From the NCBI RefSeq assembly GCF_012275375.1, contig NZ_JAAZQJ010000018.1, forward strand, positions 1 through 48,492: a stretch of 48,492 nucleotides of DNA. Reading direction: 5' to 3'. This stretch comes from Dyella sp. SG609 (GTDB taxonomy: Bacteria > Pseudomonadota > Gammaproteobacteria > Xanthomonadales > Rhodanobacteraceae). The notes under the pieces are model-generated. The model searched no databases and was not told where the DNA came from. It was given only the letters and a program-made list of their open reading frames with translations. How positions within the stretch are numbered: position 1 is the first letter of the stretch; every line of letters starts with the position of its first letter. Positions 1,720 through 13,563 of the stretch are shown piece by piece. The position numbers and the translations under genes were made by a program.

Positions 1720-2090
1720 GCTTTCACGACATCGCTGCCATGGCTGCCCGCGACGCGCTTCTGAAATCACTCCGCGGGCAACGCCATCGACACTATCAAA
1801 TCGATTTTTAGTTGTCTGTAGGCGCAAGCCTGTATTGCGTATCCAATAAATACGATAAGGATCAATCTGTCAGATTGCTCCGTCTCACTGATCGCTTCGC
1901 ATGCATCAAACCGGCCACGCACGGCCTCTCCGCGATCAGCAAAAACCAGCAGCGCATGTCAGCGATCCCCTACGTCGCACGCACGACCCTTGCATAACAC
2001 CACTGACGGATGCCGCCCCGCATCCGCCAGGCGCACAGTAGCCGCCGCTCCGCCCTCGCGGAGCCACTACCGATGAATCTGGAGAACGTC

Positions 2091-2366
2091 ATGTCCAACA
2101 AACGCGCTGCCGAGTTCCGGCTCGAACACACCAATGGCCAGCAGGTGCTCAAGCTGTACCTGCCGAAGGGCGCCTCGTTTGCCGAAGCGTCCAAGTACGA
2201 AAAGCTGCGCCAGGAAATCATCCGCGGCCTGACCGGGTGCCCGGCCTGCACCTCGGGTGTGCCGTTCCACATCTCGGACGACCCGGTGATCCTGGTCGCG
2301 TCCGAAGCCGCTCACGTCGTCGAACGCGCCAACGCGCAGATCGGCGCGCGGACCGCAGCTGCCTGA
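2091..2366 (+). CDS. Small Cys-containing protein, putative MNIO substrate/precursor
   Basis: The product is a 91-aa soluble protein with no signal peptide. The start at 2091 is chosen because GGAG lies six bases upstream; an in-frame ATG at 2072 would add six residues. Residues 8-47 look like a folded or helical leader region. Residues 49-56 carry the only two cysteines, in GCPACTSG (C50 and C53), followed by a short tail ending in Ala repeats. The gene is 18 bp upstream of a DUF692/MNIO enzyme gene and on the same strand. MNIO enzymes are known to modify cysteines or backbone of small precursor proteins encoded next to them, so this is inferred to be the substrate. Bufferin precursors carry signal peptides and this one does not. 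Alternatively, the CxxC pair could simply bind metal. Confidence 0.7.
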   Translation: MSNKRAAEFRLEHTNGQQVLKLYLPKGASFAEASKYEKLRQEIIRGLTGCPACTSGVPFHISDDPVILVASEAAHVVERANAQIGARTAAA

Positions 2367-2384
2367 TCTGTCGGTTACCGCCAC

Positions 2385-3314
2385 ATGTTCAAGCGTCACT
2401 CGATCGGCGTCGGGGTGTTGTTCAACCCGTCTCTCGCGCATTTCGTCGAGCACTGCTCCGACGCCGTCGATTTCTATTCGGTCATTCCCGAGCGCTTCTG
2501 GAACGACCACGGCCGCGGCGCCAGCCAGCGCTTCGTGCCGCTGCCCAACGAGATCGATCTGCTCGATCGCATCGCGGCGAAAAAAACCGTGGTGGCGCAC
2601 GGCGTCGGGCTGTCCATCGCCAGCGCGTCGTTGTTCGATCTGGACTACGTCCACCAGCTCAAGGACTGGCAAGCGCGCTACGGTTTCGCCTGGATCAGCG
2701 AGCATCTCGCCGCTGTGCGCATCGCGCAGGCGGCGGGCAGCGATCACCATGCGGGTCTCGCCCTGCCCTTGCCGTGGGACGAGGAATTGCTCGACCTGCT
2801 CTGCACGCGCATCCAGCAGGCGCAGGATGTGCTTGGACAGCCCATGCTGTTCGAGAACGGCGTGGAATACACGCCCGTGCCGTTTTCGGAAATGAGCGAG
2901 CCGGCCTTCCTCAATGCACTGGTCGCGCGCACCGGCTGCGGCGTGCTGCTGGACCTGCACAATCTGCATGTGAACGCGAAGAACCTGGGCCGCTCGCCCG
3001 TCGACTTTATCGACGCGCTGAATCTGGACGCGGTGCAGGAGATCCATATCGCCGGCGGCTCGACCATGCACGGCATCTACCTGGACTCGCACTCGGGGCC
3101 ATGCCCGCCGGAAGTATTCGAGCTGCTGGCCCTGGTGGCGCCGCGTTGCCCCCGTCTGCGCGGCGTGACGTTCGAATTCCTCGAATCGTATTTCCCCCTG
3201 ATGGGCGACCACGGCGTACTCGCGCAGATCGCGCTTGCGCGCCAGGCGCTGCACCCCTCCGCGAGCAACCTGCCATGTCCCTTGCCGAGTTCCAGCGCGC
3301 GCTTGGCGATCTGA
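2385..3314 (+). CDS. DUF692 / MNIO-family multinuclear non-heme iron enzyme
   Basis: This is a 309-aa TIM-barrel-type protein of the DUF692 family (MbnB, TglH and BufB1 relatives), slightly longer than the usual 270-290 because of a C-terminal tail. The expected metal-site motifs are all visible: H72 in AHGVGLS, E106/H107 in SEHLA, E157 in FENGVEY, D190/N193/H195 in LDLHNLH, E219/H221 in EIHIAGG, D234/H236 in DSHSG and E264 in FEF. Such enzymes use two or three irons and O2 to rearrange or heterocyclise residues in a partner peptide. The gene sits between a small Cys protein and a DUF2063-like partner. Its last 40 bp overlap the next gene, which suggests translational coupling. The specific chemistry cannot be told from sequence. 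Confidence 0.9.
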   Translation: MFKRHSIGVGVLFNPSLAHFVEHCSDAVDFYSVIPERFWNDHGRGASQRFVPLPNEIDLLDRIAAKKTVVAHGVGLSIASASLFDLDYVHQLKDWQARYGFAWISEHLAAVRIAQAAGSDHHAGLALPLPWDEELLDLLCTRIQQAQDVLGQPMLFENGVEYTPVPFSEMSEPAFLNALVARTGCGVLLDLHNLHVNAKNLGRSPVDFIDALNLDAVQEIHIAGGSTMHGIYLDSHSGPCPPEVFELLALVAPRCPRLRGVTFEFLESYFPLMGDHGVLAQIALARQALHPSASNLPCPLPSSSARLAI

Positions 3315-3895
3315 TCGCCTCGCCGCTGCACAGCGCCGAGGTCGCCGCACAACCGCAGCGGGCGTTGCACGACTATGCCTTGACGCAGCGCGAACGGCGG
3401 CGCCTGTGGGTAATGGCCCGCAACTCCGGCATGCGCATGAACTGCACGCTCTATCGCATCAATCGCATCATCCCCATCCATTCCGTCTTGCCGCGCACCT
3501 GCCGCCGCTTGGGCGAGATTCTTGGCGGCGTGCTCGACGCCTATTTCGCCGACGAGCCGGAAAGCACCCTGCAATACCTGCTCGAAGCCCATCGCTTCGC
3601 GCACTGGCTGCTCGCCCATCCGCCAGCGATTCATTGGCCGGTGGATGCCTTGCGCGACCTGCTCACCTTCGAACTGGCCTGCCATCACGTGATGAGCGCG
3701 CCGCGCCAGCCGCCCGAACAGAGCGAGGACGATCCGCGCCTGTGCCTGGTCACGCTCCACCACGACATCGGCAGCCTGCTCGGCGACCAGGCATCCGCAC
3801 CCACGCCGCTGCCCGATCCCGTGACGCTGCTGCTGGATGCGCGCGGGGATACGCTCAGCGTGATGCCGGTGGATGCAGCGCTCGCGTCTCAGTAG
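3275..3895 (+). CDS. DUF2063-like MNIO partner protein
   Basis: This 206-aa soluble protein is encoded by a start codon inside the end of the MNIO gene (40-bp overlap). Its pattern resembles the DUF2063 (HvfC/BufB2-type) partner proteins: an N-terminal helix MSLAEFQRAL, then a conserved-looking helical block (residues ~55-140) with LYRINRII, SVLPRTCRRLG and LRDLLTFELA. Known partners (MbnC, TglI, BufB2) bind the precursor leader and present it to the enzyme. The same role is inferred here from position and pattern, not from a clear-cut motif. The C-terminal ~60 residues are variable-looking and beta-rich. Confidence 0.7.
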   Translation: MSLAEFQRALGDLIASPLHSAEVAAQPQRALHDYALTQRERRRLWVMARNSGMRMNCTLYRINRIIPIHSVLPRTCRRLGEILGGVLDAYFADEPESTLQYLLEAHRFAHWLLAHPPAIHWPVDALRDLLTFELACHHVMSAPRQPPEQSEDDPRLCLVTLHHDIGSLLGDQASAPTPLPDPVTLLLDARGDTLSVMPVDAALASQ

Positions 3896-3939
3896 GATCG
3901 CCATGGGCGAGCCCAAACCGGCTTGCAGCGAGACAAGCC

Positions 3940-4698
3940 ATGCACCCTTCTGCCGCCACGGCCCACGCCAGAATCTCGCGCTACAGCTCCACCCCGATGG
4001 CTGTCCATAGCCACGCCACACCCAGCCTCACGCTGGTGTTGAACGGCCGCTACGAGGAAACCATCCGCGGCCGCTCCGCCTGGCACGGCGCAGGAGCGCT
4101 GCTGTTCTATCCGCCGGGCGAACCGCATGCGCAGCTGTTCGCTCCGGGCGGCGCGGTGAAGCTCAGCCTTGCGCCCGCGGCAGCCATGCTGGAATACCTG
4201 ACGGAGCGCCTGCCGCTGGCCGAAGCGCCCGTCGCCACCGCGCCGGAACTGGTACGCCTGGGCCAGCGCATGGCACAGGAGCTTCGCCTCGCCGACGCGC
4301 ATTCGCCAGCCGCACTGGAAGGCCTCTCCTGGGAACTCGTCGCCCTGTTCGGCCGCCACGCCGGGCACCGCAGCACGCAGGACACCGCCAGCGTCACCAG
4401 GGCGCGCGAATGCATCGCCGCCCATCTGGATCAGCCGCTGTCCATCGCGCGCCTGGCTGCGCTCTGCGGCATCCACCCCGCACGCCTGGCCCGCGCCTTT
4501 CGCCGCGAGCTAGGCCTGGGGCCGGGCGAGTACCAGCGCAAGCTGCGGCTGGAGCAGGCGCTGCGCCTGGTCAGCGAGACGGAGGCGCCGCTCGGCGAGG
4601 TGGCGCTGGCCTGCGGCTTCTGCGACCAGTCGCATCTGTCCCGGGCGTTCAAGGCGGCCTATGGCTGCGCGCCGACCGCGTTGCGGCGCTGTTCGTAG
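3940..4698 (+). CDS. AraC-family transcriptional regulator
   Basis: This 252-aa protein has an N-terminal cupin-like sensor region (residues ~10-80, with PPGEPHAQLF typical of the AraC_binding fold). The C-terminal ~100 residues carry the double helix-turn-helix: LSIARLAALCGIHPARLARAFRR-type first HTH and VALACGFCDQSHLSRAFK second HTH. It starts 44 bp after the MNIO partner gene on the same strand, so it may control or be co-transcribed with that cassette; this is inference from proximity. The ATG at 3940 gives a full-length protein, and an ATG at 3903 is out of frame. The ligand is unknown. Confidence 0.88.
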   Translation: MHPSAATAHARISRYSSTPMAVHSHATPSLTLVLNGRYEETIRGRSAWHGAGALLFYPPGEPHAQLFAPGGAVKLSLAPAAAMLEYLTERLPLAEAPVATAPELVRLGQRMAQELRLADAHSPAALEGLSWELVALFGRHAGHRSTQDTASVTRARECIAAHLDQPLSIARLAALCGIHPARLARAFRRELGLGPGEYQRKLRLEQALRLVSETEAPLGEVALACGFCDQSHLSRAFKAAYGCAPTALRRCS

Positions 4699-4773
4699 CA
4701 TCCCAATCGTCACGGCGATCCAAGACGGCGGCGGCGCCCGCGGCCTAAGCTCCGCGGCGGAACCGGATGCAGG

Positions 4774-6246
4774 ATGGCAACGATGATCCCCTTACTGAGC
4801 GCAGCCTTGACGGCCACCGCCCTGGCGAGCGCGCCCGCGCCTTACGACGCCCACGCGTGGCGCGCGGACTTCGCGCAGCTGAAGACGGCGCTGCAGGCGC
4901 GCTACGTCAACCTGGCCTGGATGGGATCGTACGAGAGCGGCATCGACGTACCCGCCCTCACTCACCGCGCCGAACTCGCCCTCGACGCCGCCCATAGCGA
5001 CGCCGAGGCGCGCGATGTCTTGCGCACCTTCGTCGCGGGCTTCCACGACGGCCATCTCTCCGAGCTGGCCACCCAGCTGGCGGCGCAAGGCGATGCGCCG
5101 GAACCTGAGAAAGCGACGCTGGATCCCGCCGATCCGGCCTCCGGCTGCGCGGCCATGGGCTACGCCTCGACCGCCAGCGTCGCCTTCAGCCAGCCATTCG
5201 AAAGCCTGCCCGGTGTGCATCTGCTGGGCGATGGGCAGAGCAGCGTGTTGCGCATCGGCATGGCCGACGTCGACGGCCGGCGCATCGGCCTGGTGCGCCT
5301 GCAGGTGTTCCGAGCGCGCGGCTTCCCGCAGGCCTGTCTGCGCGCATGGGCGCAGGCGCGCCAGGCGGCGACGCCGATCACCCGCGCCGCCATCGGCGAA
5401 GCGGCGCGCTACCTATGGCTGAAGGAACTGGCCGAGCAACTGAAAGCGCTGCGCAGCGCGGGCGCGCAAGCGGTGATCGTCGACGTCGGCAACAACGGCG
5501 GCGGCGACGACAGCGGCGACTGGATTCCGCGGCTGTTCGGCACGCGGCCGGTCGCTTCGTCGCGCCTGCTGGTGGTGGATGCGCCCGAGGGCATGGCTTA
5601 TCTCGACGAAGAGATCGACGGACTGACCGAGGCGCTGGCAGCCAAGCCCGGCGGCAAGGCCAAGGCGGATCTGGAAAAAGCGCTGGCCGCGTTCAAGGCG
5701 CGCAAGGCCAGCCTCGGCGCGGCGCCGTGCGATCTCTCCTGGGTGTGGCAGGAGCGCCGTGCATGGCGCGACGTCGCCTGCCGCCGCGTCATCGACGCGG
5801 GTTATGCCGACGGCCCGCTGCCCGGCCTTCCCGCGCATGCCTATGGCGACGAGACCACCGAGCAGGCCTTGGCGTGGTCGACCATCGTGCAGGACCTCTA
5901 TGGCGCGTGGCCCGGCCCCGCTTATGTGCTCACCGACGGCAAGACCTTTTCCTCGGCCGAAATGTTCGCGGCCACGATGAAGGACAACGGCGCGGCGAAA
6001 ACCATCGGCGTGCGTACCGGCGGCGATGGCTGCGGTTTTATGGGCGACGTTCCGCCCTTGGTGCTTGCGCATTCGCGCCTGCGCTTCCGCGTGCCGAACT
6101 GCATGCGATTGCGCGCGGATGGCACGGACGAAGTTGCGGGCATCGCACCGGATCTGCCCATCGCCCCCACCGAAGGCGAAAGCGACCGCGCCCGTGCGGC
6201 GCGCCTGCTGCGGACGGTGGCGGCGGAACTGGAGCCGGGCCACTAG
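4774..6246 (+). CDS. Exported S41-family (tail-specific protease-like) peptidase
   Basis: This 490-aa protein has a probable signal peptide (residues 1-~20, ending in ALASAPA). An N-terminal helical domain is followed by the S41 core: a VIVDVGNNGGGD segment (about residues 234-245) and a TFSSAEMFA segment, where Ser393 is the likely nucleophile by alignment with the SAxE motif. This is followed by GVRTGGDGCGF. S41 enzymes cleave unfolded or tail-tagged proteins in the periplasm; the substrate here is unknown. No PDZ domain is obvious, unlike CtpA/Tsp. ATG at 4774 is nearly abutted by AGG; an ATG at 4783 has better spacing and may be the true start. A putative M61-like protease gene follows after 39 bp, suggesting an operon. 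Confidence 0.85.
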   Translation: MATMIPLLSAALTATALASAPAPYDAHAWRADFAQLKTALQARYVNLAWMGSYESGIDVPALTHRAELALDAAHSDAEARDVLRTFVAGFHDGHLSELATQLAAQGDAPEPEKATLDPADPASGCAAMGYASTASVAFSQPFESLPGVHLLGDGQSSVLRIGMADVDGRRIGLVRLQVFRARGFPQACLRAWAQARQAATPITRAAIGEAARYLWLKELAEQLKALRSAGAQAVIVDVGNNGGGDDSGDWIPRLFGTRPVASSRLLVVDAPEGMAYLDEEIDGLTEALAAKPGGKAKADLEKALAAFKARKASLGAAPCDLSWVWQERRAWRDVACRRVIDAGYADGPLPGLPAHAYGDETTEQALAWSTIVQDLYGAWPGPAYVLTDGKTFSSAEMFAATMKDNGAAKTIGVRTGGDGCGFMGDVPPLVLAHSRLRFRVPNCMRLRADGTDEVAGIAPDLPIAPTEGESDRARAARLLRTVAAELEPGH

Positions 6247-6285
6247 CAGGCTGTAGCCTTCGGTTTTCCCCAAGGCAGTACCGGC

Positions 6286-8010
6286 ATGCGCTCCGTTCAA
6301 AACGTCCCGTTGTTTTACCCCGTGGTTTTCCTGGGCCTGGCGGCGTCTTCGATCGCCAGCTCGTTCGCCGCAACGCCTGCCGAGAAGCCGGCCGCGTCGC
6401 TCGACCTCACGCTGTCCACCACGCAGGCCAGCGGCGGCAGCGCCGACGGGATCGCCGTCAGCTATGCCTACACGCCGGCAACGCCGGCCGCCGCGCCGGT
6501 GACGCTGCAACTGGACACGCTGGAACCCGGGCTAGAACGCAGCACGGACCAGGTCGCGGACCTTGTCCTTAGCGACGATCGCGGCGCGCTCCCCATCGGC
6601 CCCGCGCTTGTGCGCAAGGACGGGCCGCGGAGCCTCCAGACCTGGACGACGACGCGCGCCGCGACGGGCGTGGTGCACGTGTCCTACCGCATGCACGTCG
6701 CCCCCAGCCGGCCGAAGAAGCGCGGCCCGCAGGTCGATCTGCAGGCGGCGGGCGGCGGCATTTCCGGCGGCTACGTCGGCGTGCTGGCCTTGCCCGATAT
6801 CGGCGAGGCCAGTTTCAAGACCCGGGTGCACTGGAAGCTCGCGCCGGGCGCCATGGGCGTGAGCTCGTACGGCGAAGGCGATTACGCGGGCAGCTTCACC
6901 GCCGACAAGCTACTGGGCACGCTGTTCCTGGCGGGGCCGGTCAAGACCTTCCGGCCGCGGGGCCAGGCCAAGGATGCGGGGCTGGAAATCTACGGCCTGG
7001 GCGTGACGCAGGAGCAGGTGCAGGCGGCGGGCGGTTGGGCTGCCAAGGCTTACGCCGCGGAACTCAAGGGGTTCAAGCTCGAAGGCAACCGCGCGTATCG
7101 CTACATGATCCGTTCCTTCGACGGCGTGGCGAACCCCAGCGGCCGCGCCGCCGAGCATTCCTTCATGCTCTACGTGCCGCCGGGCCAGAGCCCCGACACC
7201 ACGGAGCTGCACTACACGGTGGCGCACGAAATGGTGCACAGCCTCGCGCGCAATCTGGCGAAAGAAGACATCGAAGGCGACTGGTACACCGAAGGCCTGG
7301 CCAATTACATCGCGCTGACCGTGCCCGATGCGGCGGGACTGTACACGCCGGCCGAATATCTTGAGCTGGTCAGCGGCCAGAGCGCCGGCTATTACACCAA
7401 CGCGAAACGCTCGCTGCCCAATAGCGCGCTTCCCGCCGTCGTGTGGTCGGGCCGCAACGCGTGGATGCTTCCGTACAACCGCGGCACCCTGTATCTGGCC
7501 GACCTGGATGCCAAGCTCAAGGCGCACGGTGCCGGCATCAGCGTGCTCGATCTGGCCAACGAGATGAGTGCGCGGATGAATGCCGGCGCGCCGGAAGACC
7601 ACAGCACCTGGCTGGCGGTGCTTTCCAAGCGGGTTGGCTCCTGGGCGGTGCAGGACTGGAACGACATGATGGACGGCAAGCTTATCGTGCCGGCGGCTGG
7701 CGCTTTCGGGCCGTGCATGCATGCTACGAAGGAAGACGTGCGTATTTTCGATCTCGGCTTTGCGTCGCCGGTGCGGCTGACGGCGGGGGCGAGTATCGGT
7801 GGGTTGGTCAAAGGATCGCCGGCGGAACGTGCGGGGCTGCGCGATGGCGACGTGCTGGAGGCCAGCGTCGACATCAATCCCATGGCGGAAAGCCTCGATA
7901 AACCTGTGGTGCTGAAGGTCACTCGTGGGGGTAAGGCGGAGACGATCAGCTTTGATCCGCGCGGTGGTTCGCAGCCGGGGGTGAGGTGGAGTTCGTCGTG
8001 TGTGCGGTGA
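6286..8010 (+). CDS. Exported M61-like zinc metallopeptidase with C-terminal PDZ
   Basis: This 574-aa protein has a signal peptide (residues 1-~29, ending SSFAA). After a beta-rich N-terminal domain comes a gluzincin zinc site: HEMVH at 314-318 and, 18 residues later, E336 in WYTEGLANY, the spacing expected for the M1/M61 clan. Residues ~500-560 (IGGLVKGSPAERAGLRDGD) form a PDZ-like domain, as in M61 glycyl aminopeptidases. It probably trims peptides in the periplasm. It directly follows the S41-like gene and is probably co-transcribed with it. GC content and codon use drift a little in the last 250 bp, but the frame is intact. Confidence 0.85.
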   Translation: MRSVQNVPLFYPVVFLGLAASSIASSFAATPAEKPAASLDLTLSTTQASGGSADGIAVSYAYTPATPAAAPVTLQLDTLEPGLERSTDQVADLVLSDDRGALPIGPALVRKDGPRSLQTWTTTRAATGVVHVSYRMHVAPSRPKKRGPQVDLQAAGGGISGGYVGVLALPDIGEASFKTRVHWKLAPGAMGVSSYGEGDYAGSFTADKLLGTLFLAGPVKTFRPRGQAKDAGLEIYGLGVTQEQVQAAGGWAAKAYAAELKGFKLEGNRAYRYMIRSFDGVANPSGRAAEHSFMLYVPPGQSPDTTELHYTVAHEMVHSLARNLAKEDIEGDWYTEGLANYIALTVPDAAGLYTPAEYLELVSGQSAGYYTNAKRSLPNSALPAVVWSGRNAWMLPYNRGTLYLADLDAKLKAHGAGISVLDLANEMSARMNAGAPEDHSTWLAVLSKRVGSWAVQDWNDMMDGKLIVPAAGAFGPCMHATKEDVRIFDLGFASPVRLTAGASIGGLVKGSPAERAGLRDGDVLEASVDINPMAESLDKPVVLKVTRGGKAETISFDPRGGSQPGVRWSSSCVR

Positions 8011-8466
8011 GGGCTTGGGATTTGCGGTGTTGAGCGGGTGCTTGGTGCGCTCGAAGAAGACGCGCCGGTGATGTGAATAGCGGCATCCCATGCTCGTCAT
8101 TCCGGCGTAGGCCGGAATCCAGTAACGATAACGTTCGATTGTCGCGAGGACATTCAAAAGCGACATCTTGGAGCGACACGCTCCACACAGCGCCCCGCTA
8201 CTGGATTCCGGCCTGCGCCGGAATGACGGTGTCGTGGCGCTCATGCATCACTGACGCATTCAGCCGCTTCAATCGCCGAAAGCCACAAGCGCCAAGCCTT
8301 CGCCAAGGTAACGGGATCGCAACATCAAGTTCCGGCGAGTATCGCATCATGGCAGCACGCCCCTTCGCCACTGCCCCAATCGCCGTGACGCTAAGATGCT
8401 GACTGCATAGCCAGGCCGTCCCGACTGCGCCCATCGCCCATCACTCTCCGAAGGACCGGACCGATC
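8011..8466. other. Intergenic region carrying an inverted repeat pair
   Basis: About 450 bases between the M61-like gene and the membrane-protein gene hold the family C repeat pair (8095-8124 and 8199-8228). Plus-strand and minus-strand frames running through it are products of the repeat and have no start signals. The last 60 bases should carry the promoter of the gene at 8467; GAAGGACCGGACCGATC lies just before its ATG and supplies a ribosome binding site. Confidence 0.55.
8095..8228. repeat. Repeat family C: paired inverted ATTCCGG repeats
   Basis: Two 30-bp elements, 8095-8124 and 8199-8228, are inverted copies of each other with one mismatch. Each contains its own hairpin, ATTCCGGC against GCCGGAAT. 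Together they could fold into a long stem with a 74-bp loop. This TCATTCCGG...CCGGAAT type of element is widespread in proteobacterial intergenic regions. There is no transposase and no flanking duplication that I can see, so this is best read as a non-autonomous palindromic repeat. Confidence 0.75.
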
Positions 8467-9141
8467 ATGACCGCACTCTCAGCGATCCTTTATTTCCTCA
8501 CCCAGCATCCGTTCCTGGCCTGGCCCGTGCTCATATTCATCGGCGTGGTGCTGTCCCGGTGGCTGGCCAAGCGGACGGGCAAGGATCGCTGGTATGGGCT
8601 GATCCTGGCGTTCTTCATCTATGGCGTGATGAATCTCTTTGTCGCGCATATCTTCAATGCGCTGTTCCTGCAGGCGTTCGGCGTCGAAGGAACGGCGATC
8701 ATCACCCATGCCGAGGAAACCAACTCCACCCTCAACGACCAGAACATCTGGGAGTTCGACGGCGTGCTGAAAACGGCGGACGGCCAGGACGTGGTGGTGA
8801 AGTTCGACACCATGTCCGCCAGCATCTATCCCATTACCAACGCCATCATGATCCCGCCGCAGGGCGAGATGTTCGTGGTGAGGTATATCCCGGGGTTTCC
8901 GCGCAACTTTGTCGTCATGCGCGAGCAGTCGAGCTATGGAAAAAGATATCAGCTCGCCGAAGATCGCGGGCCCGTCGAAAAGGCCGCCGCGCAATTTGCC
9001 GTGAGCCCTGGGAACAAGGCGTTTATCGCCGAATATCGCAGCGCCCTGGCCGCCTTCATCGACAAGCATCGCCACGACGCGGACCCTGGCCTGATCATGG
9101 AATATCAGGCGAGGCTCGATGCACTGCCGCACGCGGATTAG
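8467..9141 (+). CDS. Uncharacterised membrane protein, 224 aa
   Basis: Two hydrophobic segments are visible at the N-terminus (residues ~5-30 and ~42-72), followed by a soluble beta-rich domain (residues ~75-155) and a helical tail. The start ATG has GAAGGA about 12 bases upstream. The topology suggests an inner-membrane anchor with a periplasmic or cytoplasmic domain; the family was not recognised. It converges with the M48 peptidase gene, leaving only 10 bp between the two stop codons. No functional link to neighbours is evident. Confidence 0.8.
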   Translation: MTALSAILYFLTQHPFLAWPVLIFIGVVLSRWLAKRTGKDRWYGLILAFFIYGVMNLFVAHIFNALFLQAFGVEGTAIITHAEETNSTLNDQNIWEFDGVLKTADGQDVVVKFDTMSASIYPITNAIMIPPQGEMFVVRYIPGFPRNFVVMREQSSYGKRYQLAEDRGPVEKAAAQFAVSPGNKAFIAEYRSALAAFIDKHRHDADPGLIMEYQARLDALPHAD

Positions 9142-9151
9142 CAGCGGTCTC

Positions 9152-11002
9152 TCAGGTCGATGCCGCCACCAGGGCGATCCGGCTGGCCGGGTTGCAATAA
9201 TCGCCCGGCGCATCGCGGGGGCCGAGCATTCTGACTTCCAGCGGCAGATGCAGCCGCGGCACCAGCTTCAGCAGCAATCGTTCGCAGGCGGAGCGCTGCC
9301 TGTCCTTTTCGCCGGTGAGCGCACCCACGGCGCGCAGCAGCGGCGCATCGAAAGCCTGCACGAACAATATCCACGGGGTTTGCTCGTCGTTGTCCGCCGA
9401 CGCCTGGCGGCATAGCCACAGCGCGCGGGCATGGACGAACACCGGCGCCAGCTGCCGGCACAGCAGGCCGATTTCGGCGGCATCCAGGCCGTGCGGCTGC
9501 GGGGCGTCCGATGGGCCGACATCCGCGTCCTGCCATAAGGCGTCGGCCGCGATGCGTTCCTGTTCCGCACGAGCATGGTCGCCGGCACGCAGATGGAGCT
9601 CGGAAAGCCGGCGATGCACCTGATGACGCGAACGCCACGGACCCTCGGCTATCGACGTCCATAGCGCGATCGCCCCAACAAGATCGCCCCGCTCCGCCAG
9701 CCGATCGCCCTGCATCGCCAGCAGGCGCGGATGCTCGGGATCGATCTCCCATCCGCGGCGCAGGAAATCGTCCTGGAGGGATGGGTCTTCCTCGAACTCG
9801 CGGGCGAGCGAGGCCAGGCGGCACCAGTCGGAGGCGTCAAACACTTGGCTTTGCTCGCGCTGAAGCAGATCGCGATAGAACGCGGCCTTTTCGAGATGGC
9901 GCGCCGTCGCCGCCGTCCAATCGGACTGCGCGTTCGGTTGCCAACGGTGATCCAGCCACTCGGCTATCCCGGCCGCCGCATCGCCAAGCCATGCTTCCGC
10001 AGCCGAGCGGTCCGGATGGCGCCAAGGCAATGCCGGCAAGTCGCGCAAGGGATCCACACCCGTGGCGGCAACGCGTTCGGCAAACGCCGGATGCGTATCG
10101 TCCGGCGACGTCTTGTGGCAGAGCAGTTCGTGCACCCATACCATCGCTTCGGCGCTATCGCGCGGCCGGGCATCTGCATCACCCGACAGAAGGCGTTCGA
10201 ACGGCCGCACCGCCTCGATATCGTCTTGCCCGGCCCGACCGAAGAGCTCCGGCCAGAACCTGCCGTCCAAGGCCTGCTCGCGCAACGCCAAGGCGACCTC
10301 GGCTTCGCACGCCGTACGCGAACCACAGACCGCCACCGCAAGCGCATCCGCCACCTGTTCGCAGCGCCGCGAAAACGCCAGCGTCTCGCGCAGCATCCGC
10401 GGCACATACCACGCCAGGAACAGCCGCAGCGGCGCGGTCACCAGCCGGTGATTGCGCTCATGCAGGCTTTCCAGCGCCTGCCAGCGCAACCGCGCCCGAT
10501 ACACCCAGCGCGCCAGCCGCCCATGGCTGCGCGAGATATGCGCGTACTCATGGACCAGGACCGCCGCGCACTGCGCGGGCGACAACAGCGCCAGCAAAGG
10601 CAGACCGACGATCAGCACATGCCTGGAGCGGCCGGTCTGGTAGATCGCGGCATTCAAGCGCCCGTCGATATAGACCTCGTCGAACGCCGGCGCATCGCAC
10701 GCAGCCTGCAGCCGTTTCAGCTCGGCGAATAACGCTGGCGCTTCGCCTTCGGAAAGCAGAACACCCTGTGCGGCCGGCGCCGGCAAGGCAACCGCGCAAG
10801 CCCGCAACACCGCCACGCCATAAACCACCCACGACAGCACCGGCAGCGCGAGCAGCAGCAACATCAGCGGCGAATGGACGACATGCGCCAGCCACCACGG
10901 CGAAAGCACCAGCGCGCCGCCCGCCGCGAACAGCAGCAGGTCGCCCAGCAGCAGCCAGCTGCACGCCCGCCATCGCCCGTCGCGCCGCGGTATCCGATCC
11001 AT
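9152..11002 (-). CDS. Membrane-anchored M48-family zinc peptidase with helical C-terminal region
   Basis: This 616-aa protein has two transmembrane segments at residues ~14-40 and ~45-72. The zinc motif HEYAH is at 151-155, with E215 in CEQVADALAV as the probable third ligand (the ExxxD pattern of M48 enzymes). The region beyond residue ~350 is TPR-like, with repeats such as LLAMQGDRLAERGDLVGAIALW. The start at 11002 has AAGGAG six bases upstream; longer in-frame versions have none. M48 enzymes (HtpX, BepA/LoiP types) act in membrane or envelope protein quality control. The gene lies 17 bp downstream of a Sel1/TPR-like gene, clearly in one operon with it. Confidence 0.85.
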   Translation of the reverse strand: MDRIPRRDGRWRACSWLLLGDLLLFAAGGALVLSPWWLAHVVHSPLMLLLLALPVLSWVVYGVAVLRACAVALPAPAAQGVLLSEGEAPALFAELKRLQAACDAPAFDEVYIDGRLNAAIYQTGRSRHVLIVGLPLLALLSPAQCAAVLVHEYAHISRSHGRLARWVYRARLRWQALESLHERNHRLVTAPLRLFLAWYVPRMLRETLAFSRRCEQVADALAVAVCGSRTACEAEVALALREQALDGRFWPELFGRAGQDDIEAVRPFERLLSGDADARPRDSAEAMVWVHELLCHKTSPDDTHPAFAERVAATGVDPLRDLPALPWRHPDRSAAEAWLGDAAAGIAEWLDHRWQPNAQSDWTAATARHLEKAAFYRDLLQREQSQVFDASDWCRLASLAREFEEDPSLQDDFLRRGWEIDPEHPRLLAMQGDRLAERGDLVGAIALWTSIAEGPWRSRHQVHRRLSELHLRAGDHARAEQERIAADALWQDADVGPSDAPQPHGLDAAEIGLLCRQLAPVFVHARALWLCRQASADNDEQTPWILFVQAFDAPLLRAVGALTGEKDRQRSACERLLLKLVPRLHLPLEVRMLGPRDAPGDYCNPASRIALVAAST

Positions 11003-11019
11003 GGTCCGCTCCTTGAGGC

Positions 11020-13062
11020 TTAGCGCGGCGGCAAGTGCTCGGCCGAGGGCTTGGCGCCGAAGAACGCACGCAGCGCCCTGCCCGCCATCTGCCAGCCGCT
11101 GTCGCCGTAGACCTGCGATTCCAGCCATTCGAGGCTGGAGTGCTCCGGATGCAGTTCCTTGAAACGGTCGAACCATTGCATGGCGATGTATTCGCTGCGG
11201 GGCACGCCGTCGCCGTACTTATAGGCCAGCACGATCTCGCCGTAGGCCTCGCCGGCAATAAGGTCGTCGTAGTCCTCGTCCGCGATGACCGCTTTCATAT
11301 CGGCCACGGCCTGCTGTTTTTCCTGCTCCGTGCCGAAGCGCCGCAGCAGGCTGGTGCGGCGGATCAAGGCCATGGCCAGGCCCTGCTCCAGCGCCTGCTG
11401 ATAAAGCCCGCGCACCCGCTCGAAATTCGCGCGCTGGCTCAGGTCCATGCCGTCCATTTTCTCGAGCCGATAGGCCTGGTTGTACAGCGCGGTGGAAATG
11501 CCTTCTTCCGCCGCGCGCTCCAGCCAATGCAGCGACTGGGCCTCGTCGACATGATGCGGCTCGGTATCCGGCAGCCAGCCGCGGCGTACGTCGTACATGA
11601 AGGCGCTGGCCTCGTACACGCGGCGCTCCGCCAGCTCGCTGGCGAGATAGACCGATGCCTCGTGGCGGTCGCCGTCCCACAGCATGCGGCAGACGGCCAG
11701 CGGGGTGAAGGAACTGGGCTGCTGGATCGGCGCGAGTGCGGCCGTGCGTTCGATCAGCGAGGCCGCCAGCGCATGATCCGGCGCGATATCCCACAGGCCG
11801 AAACGATAGGCGACGGCAGCAATCGACAGCATGGTCGGCTCGTCGAACCAGCGCACGGCGCGTTCCAGCACCTGCTTGAATGCGCCATCCTGGTCGGCGA
11901 AGCCGAACATCAGCATCAGGCGCGCGTAATCGCGGAAGGTTCCTTCCGCATCCGTATACACATAAGGAGCGTGGCAATACCGCAGGGAGGCGACATGCCG
12001 CTGCAGCGCCTTCTCGCGGTCGCCCAGCGAATAGGTGGTGAAGTTGGCGAGGCTGCCCATCGCGATAAAGCGCACGTAATCCGGCATCTGGCCGGCCAGC
12101 CAGCGCTCCATCGCCTTTTCGTGAGCGGCGATGGCCCGGGTGTTGCCCTGCTCGGGAAATTCGCTCAGCGCGTCGTTGACGCCCGGCCACCGCACCACGC
12201 TGAGCTGCGCCTCCGTCAAGGACGCACACAGCGGCCCCTTGGCGAATTTCTCCACTTCGCCGGGCTCGCCGCCCCAGCGCGGGGTGAGGTAATTGGCGTA
12301 GCTGGCCAGCAAGCCGGGCCATGCGGGCTTGACCTGCGCGGCAAAACGAAGCCAGTAATCCGCGGGCCGTGCCGCTTCGCCCGCAACGCGGGCCGGCAAG
12401 CCGGCGGGCAAGCTCGCGGGGAAATGCTCCGGCGGCACGATGGCGTAGTGCTTGAGCAAGGCCAGCGCGGCGTCGTAGAGCTGCGGGCCTATGTCCTCGC
12501 GGCTGGGCGGCGCTTCCGGTGTTTCGCCGCGGAACAGCGCATCCACGAATGCCGGTTCGTCGAAGTGCCGCGACATTTCCATCAGGTCTTTAGCGGCAAT
12601 AGCCGGCCGTGCGGAAAGCGCGATGGCTTCGAGCAGATATTCGGCGGCACGCGCACAGGCCATGGCCGCGGCGAGCCACTGCGCCTGGCTGACCTGGGAC
12701 GCCCACGCGGCGGTGCGAATATCCCCGGCGCGGCCGTAGTAATAACGGCCCAGCACCAGCCGTGCGTGATACGACTTGGGAAACGCGGCATTCCATGCCT
12801 GCAGGCATTCGACGCGCACGTCCGCGGGCACGGTGGCGAAATCGAACAGGGCCGGTGCGCGCACCAGATATTCGTACGCCACCGCGGCTTCGTCGGGCGC
12901 CTGCCACCATTCGTGTTCCAGCGCGCCGAGTATCTCCTCGACTTCTTCGAAGCGCCGTTCGAGCATGGCCAGGCGCAGTGCGTGCTGTTGGCGAAGCAGA
13001 TTCCATTCGGGGCCGTCGAGGGAAAGCGGCGAGGTCGGCAGACGCGGTGCGGCAGGGCTCAT
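11020..13062 (-). CDS. Large DUF4034-like / Sel1-TPR-like protein, 680 aa
   Basis: A 680-aa soluble protein without a signal peptide. The N-terminal ~300 residues contain FPKSYHARLVLGRYYYGRAG and a series of long helices that resemble DUF4034-type proteins. Residues ~470-640 contain Sel1-like repeat motifs (LERAAEEGISTALYNQAYRL, YQQALEQGLAMALI). The ATG at 13062 is chosen over an upstream frame because the extension (32 residues) has no start signal and reads into non-coding composition. Sel1/TPR repeats usually mediate protein contacts, so together with the co-transcribed M48 peptidase this could be an adaptor; that is inference. DUF4034 membership is a pattern-based guess. Confidence 0.75.
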   Translation of the reverse strand: MSPAAPRLPTSPLSLDGPEWNLLRQQHALRLAMLERRFEEVEEILGALEHEWWQAPDEAAVAYEYLVRAPALFDFATVPADVRVECLQAWNAAFPKSYHARLVLGRYYYGRAGDIRTAAWASQVSQAQWLAAAMACARAAEYLLEAIALSARPAIAAKDLMEMSRHFDEPAFVDALFRGETPEAPPSREDIGPQLYDAALALLKHYAIVPPEHFPASLPAGLPARVAGEAARPADYWLRFAAQVKPAWPGLLASYANYLTPRWGGEPGEVEKFAKGPLCASLTEAQLSVVRWPGVNDALSEFPEQGNTRAIAAHEKAMERWLAGQMPDYVRFIAMGSLANFTTYSLGDREKALQRHVASLRYCHAPYVYTDAEGTFRDYARLMLMFGFADQDGAFKQVLERAVRWFDEPTMLSIAAVAYRFGLWDIAPDHALAASLIERTAALAPIQQPSSFTPLAVCRMLWDGDRHEASVYLASELAERRVYEASAFMYDVRRGWLPDTEPHHVDEAQSLHWLERAAEEGISTALYNQAYRLEKMDGMDLSQRANFERVRGLYQQALEQGLAMALIRRTSLLRRFGTEQEKQQAVADMKAVIADEDYDDLIAGEAYGEIVLAYKYGDGVPRSEYIAMQWFDRFKELHPEHSSLEWLESQVYGDSGWQMAGRALRAFFGAKPSAEHLPPR

Positions 13063-13221
13063 GGCATATCCAGTTGATGGAGGGCGATCGGATCCGTGAT
13101 CGAATCGAGCCGGGCCATGATACGGGGATCGCAAGAAGATTCGAGGCTTTTCAGCCACGCCGCTTCACCGCTCTGCGGAAAGCCTGCGAAACGCTGACCG
13201 TCCCGATGCCGGCGCAGCCGG

Positions 13222-13551
13222 CTACTGCCCCGCTGGCGTAACGAAGGACAGCAGGCCAAGCCCGATGCATAGCAGGCTGAGCAACTTCGCCGCGAACGAC
13301 ATGCGCACGCCGCTGCGCAAGCGGTCCCGGTAGATCTCCGGCAAGGTCTTGGTCAACGCACCCTGCCCCCGGTTCAACATCCGCGCACCGAGGGCGCCGA
13401 TCAGGCAGGCCAGCGTCAACAGATTCCTGTGCCAGGACGGCGTGCCCCATTCGGCCGTCAGCAGGCATGCGGCAATGCCCAGCATCGCCAATGAAAATAC
13501 CCATCGGCTGCGCGTGTCGGTCAGCCCAAGCCATTGAGCGATGCTTTCCAT
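13222..13551 (-). CDS. Small inner-membrane protein, 109 aa
   Basis: Three hydrophobic segments (residues ~17-34, ~42-58 and ~86-104) are separated by short charged loops. No domain was recognised. The start codon is 12 bp after the stop codon of the upstream SDR gene on the minus strand, so the two are probably co-transcribed. The gap to the next minus-strand gene (at 13062) is 159 bp and may hold a separate promoter for it. Confidence 0.72.
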   Translation of the reverse strand: MESIAQWLGLTDTRSRWVFSLAMLGIAACLLTAEWGTPSWHRNLLTLACLIGALGARMLNRGQGALTKTLPEIYRDRLRSGVRMSFAAKLLSLLCIGLGLLSFVTPAGQ

Positions 13552-13563
13552 GATGCGCCAGCC

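Follow-up and report, generated by a model that had tools for sequence, protein, structure and literature searches.

The three-gene unit and its small two-Cys protein

A compact three-gene unit, entirely on the + strand, occupies positions 2091-3895 of the window, by which is meant the whole 48,492-nucleotide stretch of Dyella sp. SG609 DNA that was analysed. The genes encode a small protein (P0001, 91 aa), an enzyme of the MNIO (DUF692) family (P0002, 309 aa) and a partner protein (P0003, 206 aa). Their features are listed below with the evidence for each.

2081..2086, + strand: Shine-Dalgarno-like GGAGAA before the precursor start (sequence; GGAGA in relatives)
2091..2366, + strand: putative precursor or substrate protein, 91 aa, with two Cys and without a signal-peptide-like stretch (ORF, GCxxCxSG family)
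2235..2258, + strand: codons of G49-C50-P-A-C53-T-S-G56 (alignment A3, 12 precursors)
2385..3314, + strand: MNIO (DUF692), 309 aa, of a separate clade, with nine Fe-ligand residues matched (Pfam, alignment, tree)
3275..3895, + strand: partner, 206 aa, weakly DUF2063-like (PME-type-2-like), kin of the C-terminal domain of fused relatives (profiles)

The P0001 and P0002 ORFs are separated by 18 bp, and the P0003 ORF overlaps that of P0002 by 40 bp. An earlier note on this DNA had described three same-strand genes with the architecture of an MNIO-dependent RiPP cassette. The ORFs lie as it said (2091-2366, 2385-3314 and 3275-3895), and their order is precursor, MNIO and partner. The ATG at 2091 is the probable start of the precursor, backed by the GGAGAA just upstream; GGAGA occurs at the matching place before the precursor start in Dyella marensis, the nearest named relative found (MNIO 94% identical), and in genome G020. 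Ka/Ks against D. marensis was 0.22 for the precursor, 0.11 for the MNIO and 0.22 for the partner, and that of the precursor against G020 was 0.47. Such values fit real genes under purifying selection.

C50 and C53 are the only Cys residues of P0001. They lie in CPAC near the middle of the protein, as the earlier note had observed, within an internal CPACTSG motif (residues 50-56 of 91). P0001 has no match in Pfam or PHROGs, and its best NCBIfam match (E 0.05) was a chance match. A PHROGs search with the precursors returned no more than two weak matches, each with a single member (E 0.03 and 0.09), and comparison of the precursor family with solved structures gave chance matches only. Members of this family are 70-91 aa long, share the motif GCxxCxSG and have no signal-peptide-like stretch. 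Residues G49, C50, C53, S55 and G56 are invariant in alignment A3, whose 12 precursors are 19-90% identical to P0001, and the middle residues between the CxxCxxG-spaced positions vary across the family. The Dyella branch is divergent, with 21-30% identity to other precursors in one comparison. Two or three Cys residues were counted in each of 11 precursors, P0001 having two. Absence of a signal peptide, also proposed in the earlier note, was judged by 15-residue hydropathy alone, the maximum being 0.56 in P0001 and no more than 1.05 in 11 precursors, compared with 2.39 in one bufferin precursor.

The MNIO enzyme and its partner

P0002 matched the Pfam family PF05114 with 192 bits (cut-off 25), which places it in the MNIO family. 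It also matched five NCBIfam models of individual MNIO types but fell under the cut-off of each, scoring 174 of 310 bits for BufB, 130 of 360 for HvfB, 110 of 400 for ApyH, 71 of 600 for ChrH and 30 of 325 for MbnB. All ten enzymes of alignment A4 matched the BufB, HvfB, ApyH and ChrH models and five matched MbnB, with best E-values near those of P0002. With 174 bits for BufB and 71 for ChrH, P0002 is nearer by sequence to the bufferin enzymes than to ChrH.

Nine iron ligands have been given for TglH (PMC10880893). The residues of P0002 mapped to these places are H72, H107, E157, D190, N193, H221, D234, H236 and E264, and all nine are invariant in the ten aligned relatives. The mapping was made for this analysis, the first eight residues through an alignment with TglH and E264, which falls past the end of that alignment, from residue order and motif. 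The earlier note's description of a DUF692/MNIO enzyme with all metal motifs was thus borne out by the Pfam score and by the residues at all nine ligand places. At the places mapped to the Asp pair of MbnB, P0002 has L266 and S268.

Among solved structures the best relatives of the enzyme are 3bww, a protein of unknown function (77.7 bits), and TglH (74.5 bits). LDLHN and AGG motifs are found in the subfamily enzymes and also in TglH. A TglH-like carbon excision, in which the enzyme would remove the Cys beta-carbon, could be imagined from this shared pair of motifs and from the place of TglH as second-best solved relative. However, the Cys of TglA is C-terminal and both Cys of P0001 are internal, and the Asn73 required by TglH (PMC10880893) is replaced at the mapped place by Val or Ile in 10/10 relatives. 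This chemistry is therefore regarded as very improbable.

The same two motifs separate the subfamily from other MNIOs. His in LDxHN together with Gly as the last residue of (A/G)GG was read in all 16 subfamily enzymes. Among 73 other MNIOs, 55 have Asn and His at these places and 12 have Asn and Phe or Tyr; the remaining six were readable at one place only (five with Asn, the second place unread, and one with Gly, the first unread). His and Gly together were seen in none of the 73. In a tree of 21 enzymes, 14 subfamily enzymes stood apart with 100/100 support, divided into Dyella-type, G430-type and fused clades. The 21 include 15 selected as candidate members or as controls but lack one bufferin enzyme from the window's genome, which was not extracted; the root was placed at the midpoint and long branches were flagged by the program.

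Profile searches gave a similarly wide gap. In a class sample of 369 genomes, 222 of them with a match, the subfamily enzyme profile gave 421 bits for the window, 415 for genome G636 and at most 176 for the rest among the matches listed, which were sorted by score. In 121 genomes of the order (104 with a match) it scored 375-421 bits on the window, G304, G081 and G017 and no more than 167 elsewhere. No relative of the enzyme was found in the viral collection. A fused enzyme matched 352 plasmid records, but none among the matches listed covered more than 80% of its length. Judged by sequence, the enzymes paired with GCxxCxSG precursors form an MNIO clade of their own.

Up to E 10, P0003 matched no family of Pfam or NCBIfam, and the DUF2063 (PME-type 1) signature is absent. 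Scored with a profile built from the C-terminal domains of fused enzymes, it reached 17.7 bits, and the partner of G430 reached 80.9. Three DUF2063-type partners reached 12.0, 8.9 and 6.4 bits on this profile, the best of 200 shuffles being 2.7. P0003 thus appears to be kin of the fused domains and a looser relative of DUF2063 partners, although it is not much nearer to the fused domains than those partners are. Of nine partner domains, two gave a weak DUF2063 match (best E 0.0038), one matched HvfC (E 0.012) and none matched the ChrH model. Comparison of the partner family with solved structures gave chance matches only. The earlier note had called the partner DUF2063-like. Of that description the weak profile kinship (17.7 bits) stands and membership in the Pfam or NCBIfam family does not; the term may be kept, weakly, in the 'PME-type 2' sense of PMC12452194.

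With a profile of the nine partner domains, the domain was found in all 15 genomes that have the cassette. Nine of the 15 partners are rows of this profile, and the other six scored 124-184 bits. Eight genomes have the partner fused in frame to the MNIO (G871, G304, G081, G215, G051, G017, G395 and G636), and in seven it lies in another, overlapping or adjoining frame (the window, G003, G020, G430, G870, G873 and G874). Fusion and splitting of enzyme and partner both occur, therefore, within one clade.

Occurrence of the cassette and its surroundings

With P0001 alone as query, three of 99 genomes were matched, its own included, and a profile of three close sequences reached three of 233; a census of this reach would suggest an oddity of Dyella. 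More distant precursor relatives were first recognised by reading the DNA before related MNIOs. The resulting 12-precursor profile found the gene in ten of 398 genomes of the order, in every case just before an MNIO gene. Within one genus it was present in five of seven genomes, of which four had not been found before and all have an MNIO next to it. A ten-member profile matched three of 369 genomes of the class, one of them falsely: the match in G706 (E 8.5e-4) was rejected as a cytochrome-c-like protein without an MNIO. A weak precursor match on a Rhodococcus plasmid (E 0.04) was also rejected, because a CxxCxGG frame but no GCxxCxSG frame was seen there.

In all, the cassette is known in 15 genomes, and the pairing spans at least nine genera (eight in the order census, plus G636). 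Of these genomes, 14 were found by the precursor profile (the ten of 398 and four further), and an MNIO adjoins in all 14; the profile was built from MNIO-adjacent members, so that very distant orphans could escape it. The earlier note had looked to conservation of the small gene and its Cys pair beside MNIO genes elsewhere, which was found in the 15 genomes, and had named as contrary a majority of homologues without MNIO neighbours, which was not seen (14/14 with an MNIO).

The relation also holds when the enzyme is taken as the starting point. Scored with the enzyme profile, 16 distinct MNIO loci reached at least 332 bits and 73 reached at most 174. A GCxxCxSG frame lies just upstream in 15 of the 16 subfamily loci, of which ten are profile rows chosen for having a precursor, so that the pairing is partly a matter of selection; the six outside the profile rows are G017, G870, G871, G873, G874 and G461. 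No such frame was found within 700 bp upstream in any of the other 73 loci (L072 and L083 with shorter upstream DNA), which are those in the loci examined and not a random sample.

The one subfamily enzyme without a precursor, in G461, is a degenerate copy (L114, G461:C34:130000-136000, MNIO at about 1223-2812 on the minus strand). Its N-terminal part is out of frame with the rest, its active-site motifs are altered and no precursor was seen upstream. Here the enzyme seems to have decayed along with the loss of the substrate gene.

The small protein might instead be no substrate of the MNIO at all but a redox, zinc or haem protein of the ordinary CxxC kind, whose gene simply shares a transcript with that of the enzyme. 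CxxC is a common motif, the precursors of G215 and G395 read CxxCH like c-type haem sites, and the one false profile match, in G706, was cytochrome-c-like. In contrast, the precursors read have T, L, C or H directly after CxxC, which is not generally a haem motif, and S and G after CxxC are invariant in 12/12. Attachment of c-type haem occurs outside the cytosol, whereas the precursors have no signal-peptide-like stretch. The pairing, moreover, extends over at least nine genera and tracks one MNIO clade only. An ordinary CxxC protein is thus considered improbable.

No cassette neighbours common to different genera were recognised in the loci read, where most flanking genes were judged by eye and nine were scanned, and no protease or exporter gene common to different genera was found in these loci. 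Nor was a metal transporter or metal regulator adjoining the cassette recognised by eye. The AraC gene at 3940-4698 (Pfam HTH_18), a candidate fourth member, was rejected because neither D. marensis nor G020 showed it after the partner. It belongs to a variable spot, in which window positions 3900-13560 and D. marensis L047 6869-8897 carry different genes before a shared dehydrogenase-like gene (by eye). The window has here the AraC regulator (Pfam) and peptidase-like genes (by eye), and D. marensis a glyoxalase-family gene (Pfam) and a cellulase-like gene (by eye). Mobility was not supported, since the window and D. marensis agree in the side of the cassette on which the dehydrogenase-like gene follows the variable stretch.

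In four genomes of one genus (G430, G870, G873 and G874; loci L040, L102, L103 and L104) a cysteine-dioxygenase-family gene lies just upstream of the split cassette. The call rests on Pfam CDO_I for G873 and on matching sequence, by eye, for the other three. In L040, L103 and L104 it is preceded by an alpha/beta-hydrolase gene, by eye a MetX-like acyltransferase. The cysteine-dioxygenase neighbour is a possible link to cysteine or sulfur metabolism. Other MNIO genes were also noted in cassette-bearing genomes. In G636 (L105, 3350-7414) an MNIO and a DUF2063 partner directly precede a cassette that has a tandem pair of GCxxCxSG precursors and its MNIO and partner fused in one gene. The window's genome has two further MNIO genes, at G000:C1:26380-27159 (L002) and G000:C5:89482-90264 (L001), scoring 364 and 375 bits on PF05114; at the C1 locus a six-Cys precursor with a hydrophobic N-terminus lies before a bufferin-type enzyme.

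Possible chemistry and comparison with known systems

The peptide chemistry catalysed by MNIO enzymes is unusual, and many known substrates undergo export or clipping. The reading favoured here, at a probability of about 0.7, is that the unit is a minimal MNIO modification cassette, in which the MNIO and its partner would oxidise both cysteines of a small protein in the cytosol. The partner would bind P0001 and present C50-P-A-C53-T-S-G to the iron site of the MNIO, which would use O2 to oxidise C50 and C53 together. The product would most likely be the full-length modified small protein, acting in the cytosol. Its retention there is suggested by the absence of a signal-peptide-like stretch and of shared protease or exporter genes in the loci read.

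By analogy, the likeliest chemistry, if only tentatively so, would be a four-electron oxidation like that of ChrH and DybH, giving a Cys-Cys macrocycle with a loss of 4 Da and needing both Cys. Unmethylated members of the ChrH subfamily give -4 Da (PMC10214503, PMC12636315), and DybH tolerated changes at the middle residues of CxxCxxG in reported tests (PMC12636315). A site needing both Cys fits the present family, because both Cys and their spacing are invariant in the 12 aligned precursors. Next in likelihood, and rather doubtful, would be a thiooxazole or an oxazolone/thioamide metal ligand at one or both Cys; thiooxazole is a serious rival because the profile scores place P0002 closer to BufB than to ChrH.

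Such a ligand belongs to a different view of the whole cassette, in which the MNIO would make copper-binding heterocycles from one or both Cys separately, as in bufferins, captophorins and methanobactin, and the product would be a cytosolic copper buffer. BufB gave the best NCBIfam score (174 bits), the G636 cassette stands directly behind another MNIO with a DUF2063 partner, and a bufferin-type MNIO accompanied by a six-Cys precursor is encoded elsewhere in the window's genome. However, the BufB, HvfB and MbnB cut-offs were all missed by far, and an invariant two-Cys spacing is not expected if each Cys is modified alone. FonBC prefers a Cys-Gly dyad, with one Cys-Tyr site turned over (PMC12668002), whereas the Cys residues of P0001 precede Pro and Thr. 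In addition, no metal transporter or regulator was recognised in the flanks of the loci read, most of whose genes were judged by eye and nine scanned for families. A copper buffer is accordingly held to be possible and the less probable reading.

For the favoured oxidation of the Cys pair, a role in metal (copper) or in sulfur/oxidative stress is at most weakly suggested. It is also conceivable, if unlikely, that an uncharacterised MNIO clade installs a new mid-chain two-Cys modification, creating a catalytic, redox or metal centre that would be kept in the cell and not a secreted peptide. The cassette has a scattered distribution among related bacteria, and a clade travelling with a signal-less CxxC protein offers an easily tested two- or three-gene system for cytosolic protein modification. 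Further members can be collected by GCxxCxSG in the small protein together with an enzyme that has His in LDLHN and Gly in AGG, and the fused and split forms may help to reveal the function of the partner.

Among known systems, bufferins and captophorins (BufABC, HvfABC, FonABC) share with the cassette the order precursor-MNIO-partner, the MNIO family and the iron-ligand residues. In contrast to P0001, with two Cys and no signal-peptide-like stretch, bufferins have a Sec signal peptide. Their partner is of the DUF2063 kind (PME-type 1), whereas P0003 has no DUF2063 signature and P0002 misses the BufB cut-off of 310. The cassette enzyme also has His and Gly where 55 of the 73 other MNIOs read Asn and His. 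The earlier note's view that this is not a bufferin system therefore agrees with the missing signal-peptide-like stretch, the missing DUF2063 signature and the BufB score.

TglHI, which forms pearlins (3-thiaGlu), has the LDLHN and AGG motifs and a partner without the DUF2063 Pfam signature, described as PME-type 2 (PMC12452194). It differs in the C-terminal Cys of TglA, against the internal Cys pair of P0001, and in Asn73 of TglH, which is not kept. MbnB differs in profile score (P0002 30 bits, cut-off 325) and in its Asp pair, replaced by L266 and S268 at the mapped places. The core is neither TglA- nor MbnA-like, and here too the earlier note, which had found it unlike 3-thiaGlu and methanobactin precursors, was right.

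A closer parallel to the site itself is CPACGMG, the known MNIO site of ChrA and DybA (PMC10214503, PMC12636315). Substrates of ChrH, DybH and MelH carry CPxCGxG at the C-terminus, whereas CPACTSG of P0001 is internal and SG-ended and shares the CxxCxxG spacing only. These enzymes have an extra C-terminal helical domain, mostly fused and a separate polypeptide in cyanobacteria (PMC10214503, PMC12636315). The two groups are alike, therefore, in combining an MNIO with an extra C-terminal domain, fused or separate, and protein-sized substrates occur in the ChrH group. They differ in that secretion or lipoprotein signals are ascribed to ChrA, DybA and MelA1 (PMC12636315) and P0001 has no signal-peptide-like stretch. 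P0002 also scores only 71 bits against the ChrH cut-off of 600, and none of the nine partner domains of the family matches the ChrH model.

The nearest description is that of adjamnio-7, signal-peptide-less CxxC proteins of the MNIOs of the small SSN cluster #7, whose representative WP_078758616 is from Novilysobacter (Antoine et al. 2025, PMC12452194). The P0001 family likewise has CxxC, a gene beside an MNIO and, by hydropathy, no signal-peptide-like stretch, and Novilysobacter belongs to the Lysobacterales, the same order as Dyella. It is probably adjamnio-7 or its sister, the two being likened by description and not by sequence. GCxxCxSG and MNIO-partner fusion are not described in the accessible text of PMC12452194, and Dyella is absent from its main text. 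A literature search by title and abstract start found no named GCxxCxSG family and no test of adjamnio-7. The 'new class' suggested by the earlier note is thus an overstatement, since adjamnio-7 (PMC12452194) and the CPACGMG site of ChrA and DybA (PMC10214503, PMC12636315) precede it. The cassette is an uncharacterised branch of the known signal-less CxxC/MNIO kind, to which the present analysis adds an association between the motif of the precursor, the signature of the enzyme and the fused or split architecture.
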